Made by a program: the position numbers and the translations under genes
Part shown: in pieces, positions 1,338 through 30,552 of the stretch
Layout: every line of letters begins with the position of its first letter
How positions within the stretch are numbered: position 1 is the first letter of the stretch
Assembly (NCBI RefSeq): GCF_900243745.1
Contig: NZ_LT984798.1
Coordinates: 2,874,001-2,938,000 of the forward strand
DNA length: 64,000 bases
Source of the DNA: Desulfovibrio sp. G11
GTDB taxonomy: Bacteria > Desulfobacterota > Desulfovibrionia > Desulfovibrionales > Desulfovibrionaceae
Reading direction: 5' to 3'
Notes under the pieces: model-generated
What the model was told of the DNA's origin: nothing
Databases searched by the model: none
What the model saw: only the letters and a program-made list of their open reading frames with translations

Positions 1338-1868
1338 ATGGCTCTTACTGATACCACCATTAAGAACGCCAAGCCCAAAGATAAAGACTATAAACTCACA
1401 GATGAAAAGGGCATGTATCTCCTTGTCGCAAGGTCTGGAGGTAAATATTTCAGGCTTGATTATCGCTTTGCTGGAAAACGTAAAACTTTCGCTCTTGGCG
1501 TATACCCCGAAACTTCCTTAAAAGAAGCCAGGGTAGAACGTGATGAGGCAAGAAAACTTCTTGCTAATAACATTGACCCCTTAGAAGAGAAAAAATCTAA
1601 AAAAGTCCAGCTCATTGCTGAGACGACTAATACCTTCGAAGCTATTGCCAATGAATGGTTTGAGAAGATGAGAAGTAAATGGACTGGCTACTATGCTGAA
1701 AAAAAATGGGGTTCCCTAAAAAAAGATGTTTTCCCATCCCTTGGGGCTAAGCCAATCAAAAGCATAACCCCCGGTGATGTTCGTGCGATTTTAGACAGCA
1801 TACAGGCAAGAGGAGCTATTGATATTGCTCACCGAGTAAAAGGTATTTGTGCATTGCTGTCCGGCTAA
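1338..1868 (+). pseudogene. Tyrosine integrase, 3' truncated (P4/DUF4102 type)
   Basis: N-terminal part of a tRNA-targeting tyrosine recombinase. The opening residues (MALTDTTIKNAKPK, then a GGKYFRLDYRFAGKRKTFALG core) are the DUF4102 DNA-binding domain of P4-type integrases. The start of the core-binding domain follows from about residue 95. Family members are about 400 residues; here only about 171 genuine codons remain before an IS4-family element begins at 1852, and the last few codons come from the IS. The catalytic R-H-R-Y part is absent, so the protein cannot recombine. Its position beside tRNA-Met fits integration at the tRNA 3' end. I found no second copy of the tRNA end in the window. 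Confidence 0.88.
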
Positions 1869-3111
1869 GGGGTAACAAAAAAGTCCAAAATCTCAGCAGT
1901 ATGTGGTATAAGAAGTTACCACAACAACTTGCCACACAAGGAGATTTTGGACTTGAGCCATCATACTACACTCTTCTCTCAACTGCTATCCCTGATACCG
2001 GGACATGTTTTTGAAAAACTCGAACGCAAGCACAAAACTGGCCGCTCTTCACGCCAATTTGGATTCAAGGAGCAATTCACCGTCATGGCCTTTATCCAAC
2101 TCGCTGCAAGGCGCTCTTTACGCGATGGGCTTCGCGCCTTGGAGGCGGCCAAGAGACGGCTGTATCACCTCGGCTTGAAATCAGTAGCGCGTTCCACGGT
2201 TGCCGATGCCAACAATTCAAGGCCTGTGGAATTTTTCAAAGACCTGTTCGCTGAAATGTATGGCCTGTGCCATCTTCGTGCGCCTCGTCACAAATTCCGC
2301 TTCAAGTGCAAGCTGTACAGCATGGACGCCACCACCATCAGCCTATGCCTGTCCATCTTTCCCTGGGCGTCGTTCCGGCGGAACAAGGCTGGCGTGAAAG
2401 TAAATACCGTGCTTGACCACGATGGCTACATTCCCGCTTTTCTCGATATCAACAATGCCAAAACCCACGAAAGCCGCATGGCCAAAAGTCTTTCATTGCC
2501 AAAGGGTTCCATCGTCACCTTCGATAAAGGCTATATCTGCTATTCCTGGTTTCGCATGTTGACCGCGAAGGGCATTTTCTTCGTAACCCGACTGAAGAGC
2601 AATGCTGCCTATAAGCTCGTTGATCGCCGCGCCGTAGACCGGAAAACCGGGGTCACGTCCGATCACATCATTGACGTGAGCAGCCGGGGAAAAACCACTC
2701 GTCTACGCAGAATCGGCTATCGCGATGCGAAAACCGGCAAACGGTACGAATTTTTGACCAACCATTTCCGCCTGTCCGCCAAGACAATTGCTGATATCTA
2801 TAAAGAACGCTGGCAAATTGAAATATTCTTCCGCGAAGTCAAACAAAATCTGCATATTAAAAGCTTTGTCGGGCGCTCGGAGAATGCGGTGCACATCCAG
2901 ATTTATACGGCCCTGACCGTGTATTTACTCCTGGCCTATCAGAAATTCCTGAGCAAGCTTGGGCTGTCGGTGCAACAACTCTTCGAGCTCATTTGCTTGA
3001 ATCTGTTCGGCAAGGATTCTCTGGAAGAACTTCTGAATCCACGAAGACGAAAAACTATAAACACCTATAGTTATAGCCTGTTAGCTATGGGTGCTTAACC
3101 GGACAACATTG
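1852..3111 (+). mobile_element. IS4-family insertion sequence, copy 1 (no target duplication)
   Basis: A 1,260-bp element with imperfect terminal inverted repeats, CATTGCTGTCCGG at the left and the complement of CAATGTTGTCCGG at the right. It has the same length as the copy at 20925-22184 and encodes an identical transposase. The flanking bases, GTATTTGTG on the left and ATCTATGAC on the right, do not match, so this copy lacks the 9-bp duplication seen at the other copy. Each side joins a truncated gene (integrase and EAL protein), which points to a deletion or recombination at the element. Confidence 0.92.
1953..3098 (+). CDS. IS4-family transposase, copy 1
   Basis: DDE transposase that cuts and pastes the surrounding element. 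The first catalytic Asp is in SMDATTISLCLS, the second in IVTFDKGY, and the IS4 signature Y-x2-R-x3-E-x6-K is in YKERWQIEIFFREVK. The frame stays open from a TTG at 1929, but AAGGAG at 1938-1943 is placed to serve a TTG at 1953 (M-SHHTTLFSQ), which matches how relatives begin, giving 381 residues. Protein identical to the second copy, and no frameshift, so it should be active. The N-terminal part resembles the DUF4372 domain found in this group. Confidence 0.9.
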   Translation: MSHHTTLFSQLLSLIPGHVFEKLERKHKTGRSSRQFGFKEQFTVMAFIQLAARRSLRDGLRALEAAKRRLYHLGLKSVARSTVADANNSRPVEFFKDLFAEMYGLCHLRAPRHKFRFKCKLYSMDATTISLCLSIFPWASFRRNKAGVKVNTVLDHDGYIPAFLDINNAKTHESRMAKSLSLPKGSIVTFDKGYICYSWFRMLTAKGIFFVTRLKSNAAYKLVDRRAVDRKTGVTSDHIIDVSSRGKTTRLRRIGYRDAKTGKRYEFLTNHFRLSAKTIADIYKERWQIEIFFREVKQNLHIKSFVGRSENAVHIQIYTALTVYLLLAYQKFLSKLGLSVQQLFELICLNLFGKDSLEELLNPRRRKTINTYSYSLLAMGA

Positions 3112-15708: not shown

Positions 15709-17343
15709 TCAGACCGCCTGCTGATGGCCTTCTGCCAGTTCGGCGGCGGCGCGGAGCAGATGCGTAAAAGATTCATGCCTGCCCGCATCAAGATGCTGGC
15801 AGGGGCGGAACTCATCCACCAGACAGCCCTCGCTCAATACTACCACCCGGTCGCAGAGGCGAAAAACAGAACCCATATCGTGCGATACATAAAGTAGCGA
15901 CAGTCCCAGACTGTTTTTCAGGTTTTCCAGCAGGTCCTGCAATTGCGCGCGTACTACGGCGTCCAGGTCGGTCAGCGCTTCATCAAGAAGCAGAATGTCC
16001 GGTTTTGGGGCCAGGGCACGAGCGATGCAGACCCGTTGCAACTGCCCGCCGCTCAACTGCCCCGGGTATCTATGCGCACAGGACTGGGGCAGTTCCACCA
16101 GCGAAAGCAGCTCCGCCACACGTTTTTTGCGGTCTGCTCCTGACGCCAGCCCGTGGGCCAGCAGAGGCTCTTCAATGATCTGCCCGATCGTCATGCGTGG
16201 ATTCACCGCGCCCCGCGAATCCTGAAAGACCGTTTGCACATGTCTGCGCCAGTTATTTTTGCGGGCTTCCGGCGAGCCGATGTCTTTGCCCATAATCAGG
16301 ATATTGCCGTTATCGGGTTTTTCCAGTCCCAGCAACAGGCGGAAAAGCGTACTTTTGCCCGCGCCGTTGCGGCCCATGATGGCAAGACTTTCCCCACGGT
16401 GCAGGCGCAGGCTTACATCCCGTAAAACTTCCTGACCGGGCTGACGCCGCCAGCGGCATGCGCCATAAGTTTTTTTCAGGTTGCGACACTCCAGCAGTAC
16501 CGGTCGGTTGGGATCGACATGCTTTGTTGTGCGGGGCGTTGCGATGGCCTGTTTTTCAACAGCAGGGCGAATCCTGGATGCGTGAAAGGCATACAGCAGT
16601 TCTTTGGTATGGTCATGGCCCGGACGGCGCAGCAGTTCACGGGCCGGTGCCTGCTCCACGATGCGTCCGTCCTGCATGACAGCAATGTTGTCGGCCATGC
16701 AGGTGGCGGTGGTGAGGTCATGATCAATATAGAGCAGGGCAAAACTGTGGCGGGCCTGCAGGTTTTTCAGCAGGCGAAGAATGCGCGCCTTGCCGGGCAG
16801 GTCAAGGCTCGAGATTGGCTCGTCTGCAATAATCAGCGGGCTTTTTCGGGCCAGCGCCAAGGCTATCATAAGCCGGTGGAGCATGCCGCCGCTCAGTTCA
16901 AAAGGGTGTCGGGGCAGTATGGAACCGGGATTGGCAAAGCCCACTTCGCGCAAGCGCCGTCGCATGGCGGCTTCTTCGCGCCTGCGCGGTACGCAGCCAG
17001 TGTCTCTGAATGTTTCGCGAAAAGTATGCCGTACGGTGAAAAGGTGGTCGAAGCAGTCACCGGGGTTCTGCATGATCAGCGCGGGAGCGCCCCCGGCAAT
17101 GCGGATACTTCCTTTTTCCTGTTGCACACCGGGCGGCAGCAGGTCCATGACAGCCATGGCGGTGAGAGATTTGCCGGATCCGCTGGACCCCATAAGGGCC
17201 AGTGTTTCCCCTGCGCGAATGCTCAGGGAAACATGGTCCACAAGCCTTGATGCTTCTGTTCCGGCGGTTTTCAGGCAAAGGTCGCGAACCTCAAGAATGT
17301 ATGGGGAGTTCGGCGGGCAGGCCGGTTTTGTCACATGTTTCAT
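15709..17343 (-). CDS. nikDE: Nickel/peptide importer ATPase with two ABC domains (NikD-NikE fusion)
   Basis: Energises uptake through the two permeases encoded just upstream. The 544 residues hold two complete nucleotide-binding domains. Domain 1 has Walker A GSSGSGKS, signature LSGGMLHR and Walker B LIIADEP. Domain 2 has Walker A GRNGAGKS, signature LSGGQLQR and Walker B ILLLDEA. In E. coli these are separate NikD and NikE chains. The ATG at 17343 lies one base past the nikC stop, so translation is coupled. Peptide transporters (Dpp/Opp) share this design; the nickel assignment comes mainly from the binding protein. Confidence 0.85.
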   Translation of the reverse strand: MKHVTKPACPPNSPYILEVRDLCLKTAGTEASRLVDHVSLSIRAGETLALMGSSGSGKSLTAMAVMDLLPPGVQQEKGSIRIAGGAPALIMQNPGDCFDHLFTVRHTFRETFRDTGCVPRRREEAAMRRRLREVGFANPGSILPRHPFELSGGMLHRLMIALALARKSPLIIADEPISSLDLPGKARILRLLKNLQARHSFALLYIDHDLTTATCMADNIAVMQDGRIVEQAPARELLRRPGHDHTKELLYAFHASRIRPAVEKQAIATPRTTKHVDPNRPVLLECRNLKKTYGACRWRRQPGQEVLRDVSLRLHRGESLAIMGRNGAGKSTLFRLLLGLEKPDNGNILIMGKDIGSPEARKNNWRRHVQTVFQDSRGAVNPRMTIGQIIEEPLLAHGLASGADRKKRVAELLSLVELPQSCAHRYPGQLSGGQLQRVCIARALAPKPDILLLDEALTDLDAVVRAQLQDLLENLKNSLGLSLLYVSHDMGSVFRLCDRVVVLSEGCLVDEFRPCQHLDAGRHESFTHLLRAAAELAEGHQQAV

Positions 17344-17344
17344 A

Positions 17345-18157
17345 TCAGGCCCCCGCGGCGCGCAGGGCAGGGTCCAGGCGGTCCCGCAGCGCATCGCCCA
17401 TAAGGTTGCAGGCGGCAGTAGCCATGAAGATCATCATGCCGGGATAGAACATGAGCATGGGTTGTGAGCGTATGTAGTTGCGGGCTTCGGAGATCATGAG
17501 TCCCCACTCCGGTGTGGGGGGCTGTATGCCCAGCCCCAAAAAGGAAAGCCCGGCCACATGCAGAAGCATATGGCCCACATCCAGCGTTGCAAGTACCAGA
17601 ACCTGCACAATAATCGCGGGCAGGAAATGGCGAATGACAATGCGCGTGCGGCTCAGACCCATGGCCTGCGCTGCCAGGATATGCCCCCGGCTTTTCAGGC
17701 TCAGTACATGACTGCGCACGAGCCGTGTGTACCATGCCACATGGGTTATAGCGATGGCGATGACAAGGTTTGTCAGCCCGGCCCCGAGAATACCGATAAG
17801 AAAAAGCGCCAATACTATGGTTGGAAAGGTCATCATGGCATCGCAGACGCGCATGATGGCGGAATCTGCCCTGCCGCCGAGATAGCCTGCCACGGAGCCA
17901 AGGGCGAGGCTTGCCGCCACGATACAGGCGATGATGTACAGCACTGTGGACAGGGAGTAGCGGGCCCCCACCATGAGGCGGGAGAGAATGTCGCGCCCCA
18001 GGTGGTCTGTGCCCAGCAGATGGTCCGCACCGGGAGGCAGAAATTTTTTTGCCAGCTCCACGGCTTCGGGGTCGTGGGGTGCCAGCCAGGGACCCAGCAG
18101 GGCGCAGGCCATCAGCGGCAGCAGAATAAGAAGGGCTACGAGCGTTTTTTTGTTCAT
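17345..18157 (-). CDS. nikC: Nickel/peptide ABC transporter permease NikC-like
   Basis: Inner-membrane channel subunit of 270 residues in the BPD_transp_1 family. An N-terminal anchor (residues about 7-28) is followed by the DPEAVELAKKFLPPGADHLLGTDHLGRDILSRL motif region typical of DppC/NikC. The EAA loop is seen near AAQAMGLSRTRIVIRHFLPAI, where it contacts the ATPase. The ATG overlaps the nikB stop by four bases (ATGA), a sign of translational coupling. Second permease of the operon. Confidence 0.88.
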   Translation of the reverse strand: MNKKTLVALLILLPLMACALLGPWLAPHDPEAVELAKKFLPPGADHLLGTDHLGRDILSRLMVGARYSLSTVLYIIACIVAASLALGSVAGYLGGRADSAIMRVCDAMMTFPTIVLALFLIGILGAGLTNLVIAIAITHVAWYTRLVRSHVLSLKSRGHILAAQAMGLSRTRIVIRHFLPAIIVQVLVLATLDVGHMLLHVAGLSFLGLGIQPPTPEWGLMISEARNYIRSQPMLMFYPGMMIFMATAACNLMGDALRDRLDPALRAAGA

Positions 18158-19092
18158 CGTCCTTCTCCAAGGCGGATGCGCGGGTCGATGCGCGCGTAAA
18201 GTACATCAGTAAGCAGGTTGACAAACACAAAAATAAGGGTGGTTACCAGTGTAAACGTCTGGATCACGGGGTAGTCGTGATTGTAGATGGCAGAAACCAC
18301 ATAACGGCCAACACCGGGCCAGTTGAAAATGTTTTCAACAATCACAGCCCCGCCGAGCAGTTCGCCGAAGTGCATGCTCATGGATGTCAGGACGGGAATA
18401 AAAGCATTGCGCAGCACATGCTGGCCTATGATGCGCCATTTTTTCAAACCTCTTGAGCGGGCATAGATGACGCTGCGGCTATGCATGTGTTCCAGCATGC
18501 TGGCTCGCACCAGGCGTATGTTGATCCCCATAGACATGAAAGAAAGCGTGAACACGGGCAAAATCAGAAATTCCGGGCCGCCCCGGCCCATGGCTGGCAG
18601 AATGTCAAGATGGCGCGAAAAAAGGAGCACCAGTAGAAAACCCAGCCAGAATGAGGGCATGGATACGGCACTGAACGCAAAAATACGGGTAAGATGATCC
18701 GGCCAGCGGTCTTTGTACAGAGCAGCCGCGATACCAAGGGGAACGCTGATGAAAATTGTGGCGGCCATAGCCCACATGGTCAGTTCAATGGTAGCGGGAA
18801 GATAATACAGGATTTCGTTGAGGGCCGGATTGCCTGTGACATAGGACAGGCCCAGGTCGCCTTGCAGGGCCGAGCTCAGCCAGTCCAGATACTGCTTCCA
18901 GAGCGGCTGGTTCAGGCCCAGGCTTTCGCGGGTGGTCGCCAGCAGGCTTTCAGTGGGCGGCAGACCGGACAAACGCAGATATGCCATTGCCGGATCTGTT
19001 TTACCGTGGCGCAGGACGGCAAAAACAAAAACAGAAACTCCCAGCAGCAGAGGGGACAGGACAAGAAGGCGGCGGCACAAAAAGCGTATCAT
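18154..19092 (-). CDS. nikB: Nickel/peptide ABC transporter permease NikB-like
   Basis: Inner-membrane channel subunit, 312 residues, the DppB/NikB member of the pair. It starts with a membrane segment (LVLSPLLLGVSVFVFAVLRHG) and contains the EAA loop (YARSRGLKKWRIIGQHVLRNAFIPVLT) and the downstream GGAVIVENIFNWPGVGRY signature of this family. It is separated from nikA by 148 bases that contain a strong hairpin, and overlaps nikC. Confidence 0.88.
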   Translation of the reverse strand: MIRFLCRRLLVLSPLLLGVSVFVFAVLRHGKTDPAMAYLRLSGLPPTESLLATTRESLGLNQPLWKQYLDWLSSALQGDLGLSYVTGNPALNEILYYLPATIELTMWAMAATIFISVPLGIAAALYKDRWPDHLTRIFAFSAVSMPSFWLGFLLVLLFSRHLDILPAMGRGGPEFLILPVFTLSFMSMGINIRLVRASMLEHMHSRSVIYARSRGLKKWRIIGQHVLRNAFIPVLTSMSMHFGELLGGAVIVENIFNWPGVGRYVVSAIYNHDYPVIQTFTLVTTLIFVFVNLLTDVLYARIDPRIRLGEGR

Positions 19093-19240: not shown

Positions 19241-20875
19241 CTATGGCCTTGAAATCCGCGCCAGAGGCAGTTCGTAGGAGACAGGGCTGAAGGCGAAATC
19301 CTTGATGTTTTTCTTTTTGAACAGTGCCTTGTCAATAGTACGGCTTACGGGAACGTAAACGGCTTCTTCATGCAGCATGGTCAGAATGCTGGTGAACAGG
19401 TTCTGAAGTTCCTTGGTGTCCGTTGTGGCAAGGGCTTTTGTAATGGCTGCATCCAGTTCTTTTTTCTGCGGCAGCCCGCGCTGGGCCTGGTAGTCCGCAT
19501 GTCCGGCCACGCGCATGGCTGCAACGTATGAGAACGGATCATAGGGCGCACCGTTGGATTCGCAGAATATCATGTTGAATGCGCCGTCGGTCTGCGACGC
19601 CCCGAACGCGTTAGGCTCTTCGCCCATCAGCTTAACATCCACGCCGATGCGGGCCAGGTTGTTTTGCACCACTTCGGCAATGGAGCGCATGATGCTTTCG
19701 TTGGCAATGAACTTAAGTTCAAGGCGCAGGGTTTTGCCATCTCTGGTCCGGAATTTTTCGCCGGATTTAAGCTTCCAGCCAGCCTTGTCCAGAATGGCGG
19801 CGGCCTCTTCAAGAGAATGGGGATAAGGCTTCAGCGCGACATCACAGAAGGGAATGTCCTTAGCCAGCAGTTCTTCGGCCGGAGCTTCCTGGCCGAGCAG
19901 CACACCCTTTATTATAGAAGGACGATCAATGGCGCGCACAATGGCCTGACGCACAGCAAGCTCATTGGTCGGGAACAGGGCGGTATTCATAGCCAGCAGA
20001 CGGGTATTGCGCGGAGAAGATTCGCGGGTGGCGTAGGCCGGATCCTTGGACAGGGCGGCGTAAGCATCCGGATTTACTCCGGCCGAGCCGTGGTCGGCAA
20101 TGGCAGTGGCTATAAGGTCCACCTCACCGCTTTCAAGCGCGACAGCCCGGGTTTCTGCATCAGGAATCACCTTGACCACAAGCTGGCGCATCTGCGGTTT
20201 TTCGCCCCAGTAATTATCGTTGCGCACAAAGCGGTCAAATTCGCCTTTGCGGCTTTCGGCCAGAACCCAGGGACCAGTTCCCACAGGTGCTTTTATGCTT
20301 TGGGCGGTATTGCCGTCTTCGGGCATGGCCGCGGGGGAGAGAAAGCGCAGGGGGCGCACCAGGCTCAGTTCCTGAAGCGCTGCAGCATACGGCTGCTTGA
20401 GTACCAGTTCAAAGGTATGAGGCCCGACAGCCTTGTATGAATCGATAAGGTCAGCCGTGGCCAGCCAGTCATGACGCTTGATGTTCATGTGGACGGCATC
20501 GAAGTTTTTTACCACTGCATCGGCTGTAAAGGGAGTGCCGTCTGAAAATTTTACATCTTTGCGCAGATTGAAAGTGTAGACCTTGCCATCGGGCGAGATT
20601 GTCCAGCTTTCGGCCAGCCAGGGGACGATCTTGCCGCCTTCGGCATATTGCACCAGCGGCTCATATATGAGGGCCTGGGCGAACATCTTGTTGGCGCCGT
20701 AGGCGTGTGGGTTAAGGGGACCCACATTGCTGCTCCAGGCGTACACCAGCGTGTCTTTGTCCCATCCATTGGCAGCAGATGCGGGGAGGAGTGAAAACAG
20801 AAGGAAAAACAGAGCCAGAAAACAGCCGCAGGCATGACGGAACGATAGGGGAAACGCCTTGAAAATTCTGTTCAT
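19241..20875 (-). CDS. nikA: Periplasmic nickel-binding protein NikA-like
   Basis: Solute-binding component that captures chelated nickel in the periplasm, 544 residues. A signal peptide (FLALFFLLFSLLPASAA) precedes a SBP_bac_5 fold. Several stretches closely follow E. coli NikA as I remember it: VGPLNPHAYGANKMFAQALIYEPLV, VGTGPWVLAESRKGEFDRFVRN, YWGEKP and GAPYDPF. That is better than a generic DppA match and is the reason for the nickel call. The ATG has AGGA ten bases upstream. An IS4-family element is inserted 49 bases upstream, inside the probable promoter. Export of a peptide- or heme-type ligand cannot be excluded from sequence alone. Confidence 0.88.
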   Translation of the reverse strand: MNRIFKAFPLSFRHACGCFLALFFLLFSLLPASAANGWDKDTLVYAWSSNVGPLNPHAYGANKMFAQALIYEPLVQYAEGGKIVPWLAESWTISPDGKVYTFNLRKDVKFSDGTPFTADAVVKNFDAVHMNIKRHDWLATADLIDSYKAVGPHTFELVLKQPYAAALQELSLVRPLRFLSPAAMPEDGNTAQSIKAPVGTGPWVLAESRKGEFDRFVRNDNYWGEKPQMRQLVVKVIPDAETRAVALESGEVDLIATAIADHGSAGVNPDAYAALSKDPAYATRESSPRNTRLLAMNTALFPTNELAVRQAIVRAIDRPSIIKGVLLGQEAPAEELLAKDIPFCDVALKPYPHSLEEAAAILDKAGWKLKSGEKFRTRDGKTLRLELKFIANESIMRSIAEVVQNNLARIGVDVKLMGEEPNAFGASQTDGAFNMIFCESNGAPYDPFSYVAAMRVAGHADYQAQRGLPQKKELDAAITKALATTDTKELQNLFTSILTMLHEEAVYVPVSRTIDKALFKKKNIKDFAFSPVSYELPLARISRP

Positions 20876-20911
20876 CTTCTTGTCCTGTATGGGGTTGTGA
20901 GGATTTTTAGA

Positions 20912-20917
20912 ATAGTA
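20912..20917 (-). promoter_or_regulatory. -10 box of the split nikA promoter
   Basis: Minus strand TACTAT, 36 bases before the nikA ATG. With the IS4 copy and one target duplication removed it is 17 bp from TTGACA at 22204-22209. In the present arrangement the best -35 is TTAACC within the IS end at 18-bp spacing, a weak hybrid promoter. Confidence 0.65.
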
Positions 20918-20924
20918 TCGGCAT

Positions 20925-22184
20925 CAATGTTGTCCGGTTAAGCACCCATAGCTAACAGGCTATAACTATAGGTGTTTATAGTTTTTCGTCTTCGTGGATT
21001 CAGAAGTTCTTCCAGAGAATCCTTGCCGAACAGATTCAAGCAAATGAGCTCGAAGAGTTGTTGCACCGACAGCCCAAGCTTGCTCAGGAATTTCTGATAG
21101 GCCAGGAGTAAATACACGGTCAGGGCCGTATAAATCTGGATGTGCACCGCATTCTCCGAGCGCCCGACAAAGCTTTTAATATGCAGATTTTGTTTGACTT
21201 CGCGGAAGAATATTTCAATTTGCCAGCGTTCTTTATAGATATCAGCAATTGTCTTGGCGGACAGGCGGAAATGGTTGGTCAAAAATTCGTACCGTTTGCC
21301 GGTTTTCGCATCGCGATAGCCGATTCTGCGTAGACGAGTGGTTTTTCCCCGGCTGCTCACGTCAATGATGTGATCGGACGTGACCCCGGTTTTCCGGTCT
21401 ACGGCGCGGCGATCAACGAGCTTATAGGCAGCATTGCTCTTCAGTCGGGTTACGAAGAAAATGCCCTTCGCGGTCAACATGCGAAACCAGGAATAGCAGA
21501 TATAGCCTTTATCGAAGGTGACGATGGAACCCTTTGGCAATGAAAGACTTTTGGCCATGCGGCTTTCGTGGGTTTTGGCATTGTTGATATCGAGAAAAGC
21601 GGGAATGTAGCCATCGTGGTCAAGCACGGTATTTACTTTCACGCCAGCCTTGTTCCGCCGGAACGACGCCCAGGGAAAGATGGACAGGCATAGGCTGATG
21701 GTGGTGGCGTCCATGCTGTACAGCTTGCACTTGAAGCGGAATTTGTGACGAGGCGCACGAAGATGGCACAGGCCATACATTTCAGCGAACAGGTCTTTGA
21801 AAAATTCCACAGGCCTTGAATTGTTGGCATCGGCAACCGTGGAACGCGCTACTGATTTCAAGCCGAGGTGATACAGCCGTCTCTTGGCCGCCTCCAAGGC
21901 GCGAAGCCCATCGCGTAAAGAGCGCCTTGCAGCGAGTTGGATAAAGGCCATGACGGTGAATTGCTCCTTGAATCCAAATTGGCGTGAAGAGCGGCCAGTT
22001 TTGTGCTTGCGTTCGAGTTTTTCAAAAACATGTCCCGGTATCAGGGATAGCAGTTGAGAGAAGAGTGTAGTATGATGGCTCAAGTCCAAAATCTCCTTGT
22101 GTGGCAAGTTGTTGTGGTAACTTCTTATACCACATACTGCTGAGATTTTGGACTTTTTTGTTACCCCTTAGCCGGACAGCAATG
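20925..22184 (-). mobile_element. IS4-family insertion sequence, copy 2, with 9-bp target duplication
   Basis: A 1,260-bp element, same length as copy 1 and in opposite orientation. Ends are CAATGTTGTCCGG and the complement of CATTGCTGTCCGG. The target duplication TATCGGCAT is intact at 20916-20924 and 22185-22193, so this is a simple transposition. It lies between the -10 and -35 elements reconstructed for nikA. Confidence 0.95.
20938..22083 (-). CDS. IS4-family transposase, copy 2
   Basis: 381-residue DDE transposase, protein identical to the one at 1953-3098. The catalytic Asp residues (SMDATTIS and TFDKGYICY) and the Y-x2-R-x3-E-x6-K signature are intact. As in copy 1, the best start is a TTG placed nine bases after AAGGAG. 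The two identical copies in opposite orientation 18 kb apart could invert the intervening DNA by homologous recombination; the matching target duplication here shows that this copy has not undergone such an exchange. Confidence 0.9.
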   Translation of the reverse strand: MSHHTTLFSQLLSLIPGHVFEKLERKHKTGRSSRQFGFKEQFTVMAFIQLAARRSLRDGLRALEAAKRRLYHLGLKSVARSTVADANNSRPVEFFKDLFAEMYGLCHLRAPRHKFRFKCKLYSMDATTISLCLSIFPWASFRRNKAGVKVNTVLDHDGYIPAFLDINNAKTHESRMAKSLSLPKGSIVTFDKGYICYSWFRMLTAKGIFFVTRLKSNAAYKLVDRRAVDRKTGVTSDHIIDVSSRGKTTRLRRIGYRDAKTGKRYEFLTNHFRLSAKTIADIYKERWQIEIFFREVKQNLHIKSFVGRSENAVHIQIYTALTVYLLLAYQKFLSKLGLSVQQLFELICLNLFGKDSLEELLNPRRRKTINTYSYSLLAMGA

Positions 22185-22202
22185 TATCGGCATGTTATTT
22201 TT

Positions 22203-22229
22203 GTGTCAACTTTTAAAAAAACGTGACAC
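22203..22229 (-). promoter_or_regulatory. Orphaned -35 box and NikR-like operator of nikA
   Basis: Inverted repeat GTGTCAA-N13-GTGACAC. On the minus strand the inner arm contains TTGACA (22204-22209), a perfect -35. The repeat resembles the deltaproteobacterial NikR box that I recall as GTGTTAC-N13/14-GTAACAC. Before the IS insertion it would have lain about 58-85 bases upstream of the nikA ATG, overlapping the -35. Confidence 0.65.
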
Positions 22230-23029
22230 ACGTTGTGCATGCTTTTTTGCTGGCGCACCGGCTCGGTCCGGGGCTGCTGCCACCCTGGCCTGTAGTTTTA
22301 CGTGAGGAGGCGCATGCCGCCACAATCGGGCTGGAGAATTGTCTGTTTTTATCAACACCGTTTCCGCGTGATGGAATTTTTTCGAGCAGGTGCTTTATTG
22401 CACGTAAGATGATAACTGGGCTGGCTGATACTGGTCGTCGTGTCACGCATGCACCTGTTGGTGTTATAAAGCACAAGGATGGAAGCGACAGCGCCGGAAA
22501 AACATGCTTTCCCGGCCAGAGGGGCGCTTTTGGGACATTTTTGAGCAACGTGCTCTTCTGCATGTGTTTGTCTGGTTTAAATGCTTTTCTGATGAACATG
22601 GACTGCATTACAAGATAAAATTAAGCCATGTTTGTGCATATTAAAATCATAAGAAAGTTTTTTTTGTCTTTTATTATAAATACTGTGTGGAGTATCGTAT
22701 AAATACTTTCTACAGAGTGATTATTTTTATTTTATACAGTGAGAAAAATGCTGCCTAACCTGTCAGGATAAGAGGATATTTACAGGTTGTTAAACTTTGA
22801 ACTAATGCTTGACAATCTGGCTCAGAAAGGTATGTTCTCAGGCGGTGCCGCTGATTTTTTCTGTAAGACGGCACCATTTTTGGCGTGGTTTCCCCAGCCG
22901 GACACTGCGGCAAATTTTGTCTTTTGGTGCGCCATGTGCTCGTTTGTACAAGGTCGCCAGAGGCAATAGGTGCCGGCGGGGGAGGTGTTTTCGTGATTAC
23001 TTGCATTATTCGCATGGAGGACTATGGGT
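22230..23029. other. Long leader region before the YeiH-type gene
   Basis: About 800 bases without a credible gene. The segment 22610-22760 is very AT-rich and repeats TATAAATACT twice (22676 and 22699 regions). TTGACA (22809-22814), a 16-bp spacer and TATGTT (22831-22836) form a possible promoter for the gene at 23030. Frames on both strands lack family features. Confidence 0.45.
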
Positions 23030-29482: not shown

Positions 29483-30552
29483 TTCAAGTTCAAAGTGCAA
29501 CACCCAGTCCTTGGGTATTGGCGTCTTCTAAAAAAACTTCATAGGGTGTCTTAAACCCAAGGCATTTTCTAGGCCGCCAGTTCAAGCGGCACATTGCCGC
29601 TATGATCTCATCTTGCGTGACCGATGCCAAGCTTACCCCCTTGGGGAAGTATTGGCGTAGAAGGCCATTGGAGTTCTCGTTCAAGCCACGCTCCCACGAA
29701 TGGTAGGGGTGCGCAAAAAATCCCTGAGCCTCGAGTGTAGCTGACACATCGGCATGGTAGCTGAACTCCTTGCCGTTATCATAGGTAATAGTCTGAACAA
29801 AGTCCTTAATGGGTGTCAAGAGTCCTTCAATGACCCGCCTTACTTCGCTGGCGCTTTTGTTGGGAGCCTTGCCAAACAGGAAAAGACGACTTTTACGCTC
29901 TGCAAGTGTCACCAAAACGGGGCCTCCTTTACTGCCTTCAACGGTATCAGCCTCCCAATCACCAAGGCGTGAGCGCTCGGCAACAATGGACGGGCGTATG
30001 TCTATGCTGATACGCCCCTTGATTTGACCTCGTCTGTCGGGTTTGCCATATCGTCGTTTGCGTTTGCGCTGGCAGCGCAAATGGCTGTGCAGCGTTCCTC
30101 CTCGTTTTTTGTCCGCCAGAATGTACTGGTAAATCCATTCATGACTGAGGGCAAAACCTTTGCGTTTGAGAACTCCAGAGATTTGCTCCGGACTGAAGTC
30201 CTGGTGCAGACACTGTTCAACATACGTCCATACCTCAAGGCCAATGCGCTTCTTCCCTTTACTGGTCTGCCTTTTCTGACTGCGCTTGTGTGCCTGCCTG
30301 TAGCGGTAGCCACGCGCCCCGGTATTTCGCGCAAGTTCGCGGCTTACAGTTGAGACGCTACGGCCTATCGCTTTGGCTATGGCCCTCAGTGACGTTCCAC
30401 TTTTCACTGCCTGGCAGATGTAGTACCGTTCTTCCCTGGCAAGGTGTGCATAGCCCATACGCCCCTCAATCTTTGGTTGGATGGAGAGGCTAAAGTGCTA
30501 TACCACCTTGCCTTTTCATTCAACCTTGAGGGTGTTGCACTTGCAAGTTGAA
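29483..30552 (-). mobile_element. IS30-family insertion sequence
   Basis: About 1,070 bp with 23-bp terminal repeats sharing 20 bases (TTCAAGTTCAAAGTGCAACACCC and, at the far end, the complement of TTCAACTTGCAAGTGCAACACCC). One transposase gene fills it. I could not identify a clear target duplication. It sits in the divergent region between hynB and metY. Confidence 0.88.
29490..30458 (-). CDS. IS30-family transposase
   Basis: 322 residues. The N-terminal helix-turn-helix (HLAREERYYICQAVKSGTSLRAIAKAIGRSVSTVSREL) is the IS30 DNA-binding signature. The DDE core follows with Asp in RLGDWEADTVEG, Asp in TITYDNGKEF and Glu in ERGLNENSNGLLRQYFPKG. All parts are intact and the length is normal, so the element is probably active. 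It is transcribed towards hynB and ends seven bases inside the element. Confidence 0.93.
   Translation of the reverse strand: MGYAHLAREERYYICQAVKSGTSLRAIAKAIGRSVSTVSRELARNTGARGYRYRQAHKRSQKRQTSKGKKRIGLEVWTYVEQCLHQDFSPEQISGVLKRKGFALSHEWIYQYILADKKRGGTLHSHLRCQRKRKRRYGKPDRRGQIKGRISIDIRPSIVAERSRLGDWEADTVEGSKGGPVLVTLAERKSRLFLFGKAPNKSASEVRRVIEGLLTPIKDFVQTITYDNGKEFSYHADVSATLEAQGFFAHPYHSWERGLNENSNGLLRQYFPKGVSLASVTQDEIIAAMCRLNWRPRKCLGFKTPYEVFLEDANTQGLGVAL

Follow-up and report, generated by a model that had tools for sequence, protein, structure and literature searches.

A predicted NikR operator separated from the nikA operon by an IS4-family insertion in Desulfovibrio sp. G11

The consensus of delta-proteobacterial NikR operators is GTGTTAC-[N13/14]-GTAACAC (Rodionov et al., 2004; PMC545781, Table 4), and the same source describes operons of the NikABCDE type as absent from the genomes that it studied. 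In Escherichia coli, the NikR operator of nikABCDE is GTATGA-N16-TCATAC (PMC7055735). Insertion sequences (IS) can create hybrid or fusion promoters, in which, according to a legend in PMC9330008, the -35 hexamer comes from the IS and the -10 hexamer from the target.

In this study, we analyzed a window of 64,000 nucleotides from Desulfovibrio sp. G11 (NZ_LT984798.1, positions 2,874,001 to 2,938,000). The original prediction, whose consensus agrees with that in Table 4 of PMC545781, read a palindrome in this window as nikA's NikR-type operator stranded beyond an IS, and proposed that nickel uptake may have lost repression. The palindrome itself was confirmed. Its reading as a NikR operator is strongly supported by comparison, namely by the presence of nikR, motif matrices of the genus, a footprint in an IS-free relative, and the NikA score; the physiological part is unproven. 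A literature search, conducted mostly outside subscription journals, returned no paper on this insertion, and no priority is claimed.

The nik operon, the palindrome, and the IS

The coordinates of the features are listed in Table 1. nikA, nikB, nikC, and the fused nikD-nikE have no internal stops, and each of the A to E components scored above at least one Nik cut-off; NikB and NikC missed TIGR02789 and TIGR02790, respectively. By family assignment, nikABC(DE) is predicted to be a nickel transporter. Residues 24-543 of the NikD-NikE fusion match one collinear stretch (73%) in the relative G009. The nikR gene that the original prediction presupposed is present in one copy: the sole NikR_C gene of the genome is a 168-aa ORF without internal stops, has a ribbon-helix-helix domain, and aligns with solved nickel-responsive regulators (1q5v/2hzv), which we take to be E. 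coli NikR. nikR was found in 71 of the 79 genomes of the genus and in 54 of the 55 of good quality. On the far side of the IS, a YeiH-like membrane gene (34.5 bits, far under the family cut-off) is followed by a [NiFe]-hydrogenase cluster, whose hydrogenase names are our reading.

Table 1. Coordinates of the nik genes, the IS, and the predicted regulatory elements in the window.
Feature	Position	Strand	Basis
Fused nikD-nikE, two ATPase domains in one 561-aa frame	15709..17394	-	TIGR02770 360.7 (cut-off 318.7), TIGR02769 372.6 (332.55); whole-protein scores over two ATPase stretches
nikC, permease	17345..18157	-	NF007738 418.2 bits, cut-off 335; TIGR02790 346.3, below cut-off 358.45
nikB, permease	18154..19092	-	NF007677 444.4 bits, cut-off 433; TIGR02789 400.2, below cut-off 447
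nikA, nickel ABC transporter substrate-binding protein	19241..20875	-	TIGR02294 617.6 bits, cut-off 393
TACTAT, -10-like hexamer of the putative pre-insertion promoter, nikA side	20912..20917	-	Joined empty site; presumed use
9-bp target duplication TATCGGCAT, nikA side	20916..20924	.
IS4-family insertion sequence, 1260 bp	20925..22184	-	Transposase; 18-bp imperfect terminal inverted repeats 20925-20942, 22167-22184
Transposase gene	20938..22107	-	NF033592 269.6 bits, cut-off 115
Perfect 14-bp inverted repeat over transposase start region	22082..22155 (22082-22095 / 22142-22155)	-	Loop 46 nt
TACATT, -10-like: duplication TA plus IS end CATT	22181..22186	-	Presumed use
9-bp target duplication TATCGGCAT, operator side	22185..22193	.
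Predicted NikR-type operator GTGTCAA-N13-GTGACAC, formerly nikA's	22203..22229	.	Motif matrices, repeat, footprint in relative
TTGACA, -35-like hexamer within operator	22204..22209	-	Presumed promoter use

Positions 22203-22229 read GTGTCAACTTTTAAAAAAACGTGACAC, so that the predicted GTGTCAA-N13-GTGACAC was correct to the letter and in its coordinates. The inverted repeat is longer than noted earlier, with arms of 13 nt each (22202-22214 and 22218-22230) that are 85% complementary. Its architecture is that of a 27-bp inverted repeat with two 7-bp half-sites and a 13-bp spacer, the published operators having 27-28 bp and spacers of 13/14 bp. The distance from the nikA start (20875) to position 22203 is 1328 bp, as claimed (more than 1.3 kb).

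The IS carries an IS4 transposase, terminal inverted repeats, and a target duplication, which place it in the IS4 family. At least 40 near-identical copies are present in the 3.42-Mb genome (40 of 75 candidates were scored), and 20 of these 40, this one included, share the top score. When the flanks of 10 copies were inspected, the 9-bp duplication was kept in four, including this one, and absent in six. A second full-length copy lies in the window at 1852-3111 (G000:C1:2875852-2877111) in the opposite orientation and without a matching duplication (L097). Two further copies, L099 and L100, are about 4 kb apart in opposite orientation, and the right flank of the former and the left flank of the latter share AAACCATGC, which would fit an inversion between the two copies. 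By our reading, a further transposase-like gene (window 29490-30458) lies beside the hydrogenase genes and recurs truncated at L013:5083-5439, upstream of a HydG-like gene and next to another transposase-like gene; on this reading, other mobile elements also appear to adjoin nickel- and hydrogenase-related genes.

Motif statistics and conservation in relatives

The site differs from GTGTTAC / GTAACAC at 3 of the 14 half-site letters. Because the genome contains 44 places with an equal or better match (within 3 mismatches; reversed control, 213), the published consensus alone proves nothing. With 3 mismatches, the pattern gave 3 matches in the window vs 3.29 expected. Exact GTGTCA-N15-TGACAC occurs once in the 3.42-Mb genome and in 4 of 79 genomes of the genus vs 5 of 79 for the reversed control (our count). 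Exact and mismatch-tolerant consensus searches were thus rejected as proof, since the site did not stand out from background in them, as it did with full-length matrices and footprinting.

The 79 genomes of the genus were then searched with the pattern GTGTTAY-N13-RTAACAC, which was found in 14 genomes vs 10 for the reversed control (our count). This strict-pattern count is weak by itself, so the neighboring genes and the spacers carry the argument. Outside this genome, 13 sites were obtained: six before HydE-like and three before HydG-like radical-SAM genes, two before TonB-plug receptors, and two without assignment (in G012, one ORF beside the site had no Pfam match; G054 lay outside the Pfam scan). 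The names HydE and HydG are our reading. The Pfam analysis covered a single HydE-like ORF, three HydG-like ORFs, and the two receptor ORFs; the remaining HydE-like genes (G003, G005, G023, G042, and G022, the last without a complete listed frame) were assigned by reading of translations. In most of these sites, the spacer is AT-rich and contains runs of T and of A.

A 27-column matrix was built from 11 of the 13 sites, all from other genomes of the genus; G012 and G054 were excluded as their neighbor genes were not recognized. Two of the 11 sites are identical (G005 and G042), and an 8-site set was formed by excluding G005, G023, and G042 as duplicates or near-duplicates. With the 11-site matrix, the operator scored 24.8 bits and was the top of the window, the next score being 4.0 (20 bits lower). 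None in a 3.4-Mb simulated genome reached 24.8 bits (maximum, 11.7), nor did any in 2 Mb of simulated AT-rich background. A scan with a NikR motif model had been proposed originally as a check; with the genus matrices, it returned a full-length match far above background. By its half-sites alone, the operator is unremarkable (26 as good per simulated genome, 32 per 2 Mb of AT-rich background, second in the window), and at full length it is unmatched in the simulated DNA; spacer and halves are needed together. The genome's own site before a HydG-like gene scored 40.5 bits with the 11-site matrix, and the operator is identical to it at 22 of 27 positions (our count). A site before a NikK-like gene (L152:4441-4467, 15.1 bits) is not claimed, since it scored below the simulated maximum of 17.1.

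A further comparison comes from G009, in which the gene order is identical (nikDE-C-B-A, YeiH-like gene, hydrogenase genes) and nikA is 86% identical. No transposase match was found within the 12-kb stretch of G009. In this relative, the operator is kept at 24 of 27 bases in otherwise unrelated surroundings, although one half-site is the degenerate GTAGCAC, and it lies 57 bp from the nikA start vs 58 bp here with the flanks joined. Past the operator, the alignment shows no further conservation until close to the YeiH-like gene. After masking of the operator, the highest other 27-base match in 550 bp was 19, and 200 simulated pairs gave 21 or fewer. A role of the palindrome in the promoter of the YeiH-like gene was rejected, because about 800 bp separate the two, vs 58 bp to nikA once the flanks are joined.

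Upstream regions of nikA homologues (39-86% identical) were scanned at one homologue per genome, 29 loci besides the own one; L126 fell outside the scan because its upstream sequence is too short. A site at p ≤ 0.01 was present in 12 of 28 regions (11 of 27 without G009), counts that ignore kinship; the other 16 regions had no significant site. Control stretches from the same loci had sites in 0/27, 0/27, 0/29, and 1/29. The motif is thus conserved before nickel-related genes in relatives, in G009 and in these 12 regions, of which G009 is one. A 12-site nikA set was assembled with L130 (p = 0.066, chosen by eye) and without L131 (contains N, p = 0.013) and the G009 site. Half-sites at nikA homologues vary, with GTAGCAC, GTGGCAC, GTGCTAC, and GTATTAC among them, which makes GTGTCAC/GTGTCAA unremarkable. 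A search of named genomes for nikA gave 80 loci, none above 46% identity.

Could the palindrome serve something else? The Desulfovibrio ModE consensus, as quoted in PMC545781, likewise has cGTGACC; however, 14 bp separate its GTCACg and cGTGAC vs 11 bp here (our count), and with the half-site partly similar and the spacing different, ModE was rejected as the binder. A terminator scan flagged 22234-22220 (-), but it found 2 hairpins vs 2.1 expected, no more than shuffles give, and by our reading G009 lacks an equivalent of the 6-bp stem, although it retains the operator. Since NikR is consistent with both the matrix and the sites at nikA homologues, another regulator, a chance palindrome, or a terminator-like hairpin is improbable, and 22203-22229 is very probably a NikR operator.

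Two other observations concern the regulon. L013:4321-4347 and L013:4470-4496 (G000:C1:216320 and 216469) of this genome are NikR-like sites of 35.2 and 25.9 bits, followed downstream by a HydG-like gene and, after it, a HydE-like gene; [FeFe]-hydrogenase maturation may be under nickel repression here. L139 (G002) and L143 (G009) are strict NikR-like sites before TonB-plug receptor genes, possibly for outer-membrane nickel receptors.

Promoter elements before and after the insertion

With the flanks joined, the minus strand reads TTGACA-N17-TACTAT, with TTGACA in the operator. G009 has the promoter-like pair TTGACA-N17-TAGGTT, whose -10 is poor. As TTGACA is part of a half-site, its conservation need not mean a -35 element, and we infer its promoter use. 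On the operator side, the IS end now completes TTGACA-N17-TACATT, which matches the consensus at 10 of 12 positions (-10, 4 of 6). It is the only promoter-like pair on both strands of 20800-22400 (shuffles average 1.3), and a relaxed minus-strand scan of 20851-22260 again gave it as the only pair. The "orphaned -35" of the original prediction holds in that TTGACA lost its old -10, TACTAT; it does not hold in that TTGACA now faces TACATT at 17 bp.

The proposed loss of nickel repression fared less well. With both the -35 and the operator gone from nikA, a drop in expression is no less likely than derepression. In addition, the IS end restores a promoter-like element beneath the operator, and read-through from it could preserve some control by NikR. 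Constitutive expression of nikA from the IS, with a real operator and nickel uptake free of repression, was the view of the original prediction. It would agree with an operator 1.33 kb away and a co-directional transposase gene that ends about 60 bp before the nikA start. By our reading, candidate promoters are an extended -10 inside the IS (TGGTATAAG, ~22130-22122) and TTAACC-N18-TACTAT over the nikA-side junction (8 of 12), but both failed the promoter scans. Transposase promoters are usually weak, and nikA's own -35 is lost too. We regard constitutive expression as unlikely.

It is doubtful, too, that control survives, with operator and IS end forming a NikR-repressed hybrid promoter whose transcript runs over the IS into nikA. 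TTGACA-N17-TACATT being the sole pair in both scans favors this, as does the IS itself, in whose minus strand the scan found no terminator-like site. However, the -10 matches at just four of six positions, and the 1.3 kb RNA would be mostly translation-blocked by its fold, so that Rho may end the transcript. In a transcript entering from the hybrid promoter, the 14-bp stem had a z of -3.56, and 0 of 200 shuffles were as stable (fold prediction). Such a start-region hairpin protects IS10 and IS50 against read-through. Pairing probabilities of modelled internal transcripts showed most ribosome-binding bases paired as well, which leaves the start region as the basis of the contrast. It is equally doubtful that the insertion, rather than freeing nickel uptake from NikR, put the IS4 element inside the nickel regulon, with a nickel-repressed hybrid promoter, a transcript through the IS into nikABC(DE), and the hairpin preventing transposase yield. 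If true, one NikR site would govern transcription over a transposable element and a transporter.

Starting from what was directly observed (the site, the insertion, the footprint, the motif match, and nikR and nik genes without internal stops), our preferred account, reduced and partly uncoupled expression, is as follows. The palindrome would have served the nikABC(DE) operon ancestrally as its NikR operator. Binding of Ni-loaded NikR there would have shut off a promoter whose TTGACA falls within the operator and whose -10, TACTAT, lay 17 bp nearer nikA. The IS4-family insertion, with its 9-bp duplication, would have divided the -35 of this promoter from its -10, and the operator now lies 1.33 kb upstream. 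From there, NikR could regulate only those transcripts that begin at the operator, arise from a weak hybrid promoter, and pass through the co-directional transposase gene; transcription starting inside the IS would escape it. The net effect would most likely be lower nik expression, partly uncoupled from nickel. A CbiM/NikM gene lies in a cluster that reads as nikKMLQO (other names are our reading after PMC545781). This cluster reads as back-up nickel import and would still import nickel, so neither nickel starvation nor overload need follow. Taken whole, with NikR binding, promoter use, read-through, and phenotype all presumed, we give this account an even chance.

Comparison with known systems

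The case adds a new example to known phenomena and can serve as a natural experiment, in which a single insertion parts a metal-responsive operator from its operon and an IS-free relative is available for comparison. The genus sites suggest that NikR also controls HydE/HydG-like [FeFe]-hydrogenase maturation genes, TonB-dependent receptors, and NikABCDE-type operons. This would extend the 2004 prediction, which PMC545781 gives for hydAB and nikMQO-type genes, with a half-site that is more variable at nikA-type promoters.

Like the operators tabulated in PMC545781, the present one is a 27-bp inverted repeat with a 13-bp spacer and GTGTTAC-like half-sites before a nickel transporter in a genome with nikR; unlike them, it differs at three half-site letters, would have served a NikABCDE-type operon, and is now separated from that operon by an IS. 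With the E. coli operator as given in PMC7055735, it shares the arrangement of one palindromic NikR site in a nikABCDE promoter; however, the half-site sequence is another, and here an AT-rich spacer adds to the match. As in the hybrid promoters of the PMC9330008 legend, the hexamers are shared between an IS end and target DNA, but here the target keeps the putative -35 and the operator, the IS end gives the -10, and the promoter points into the IS.
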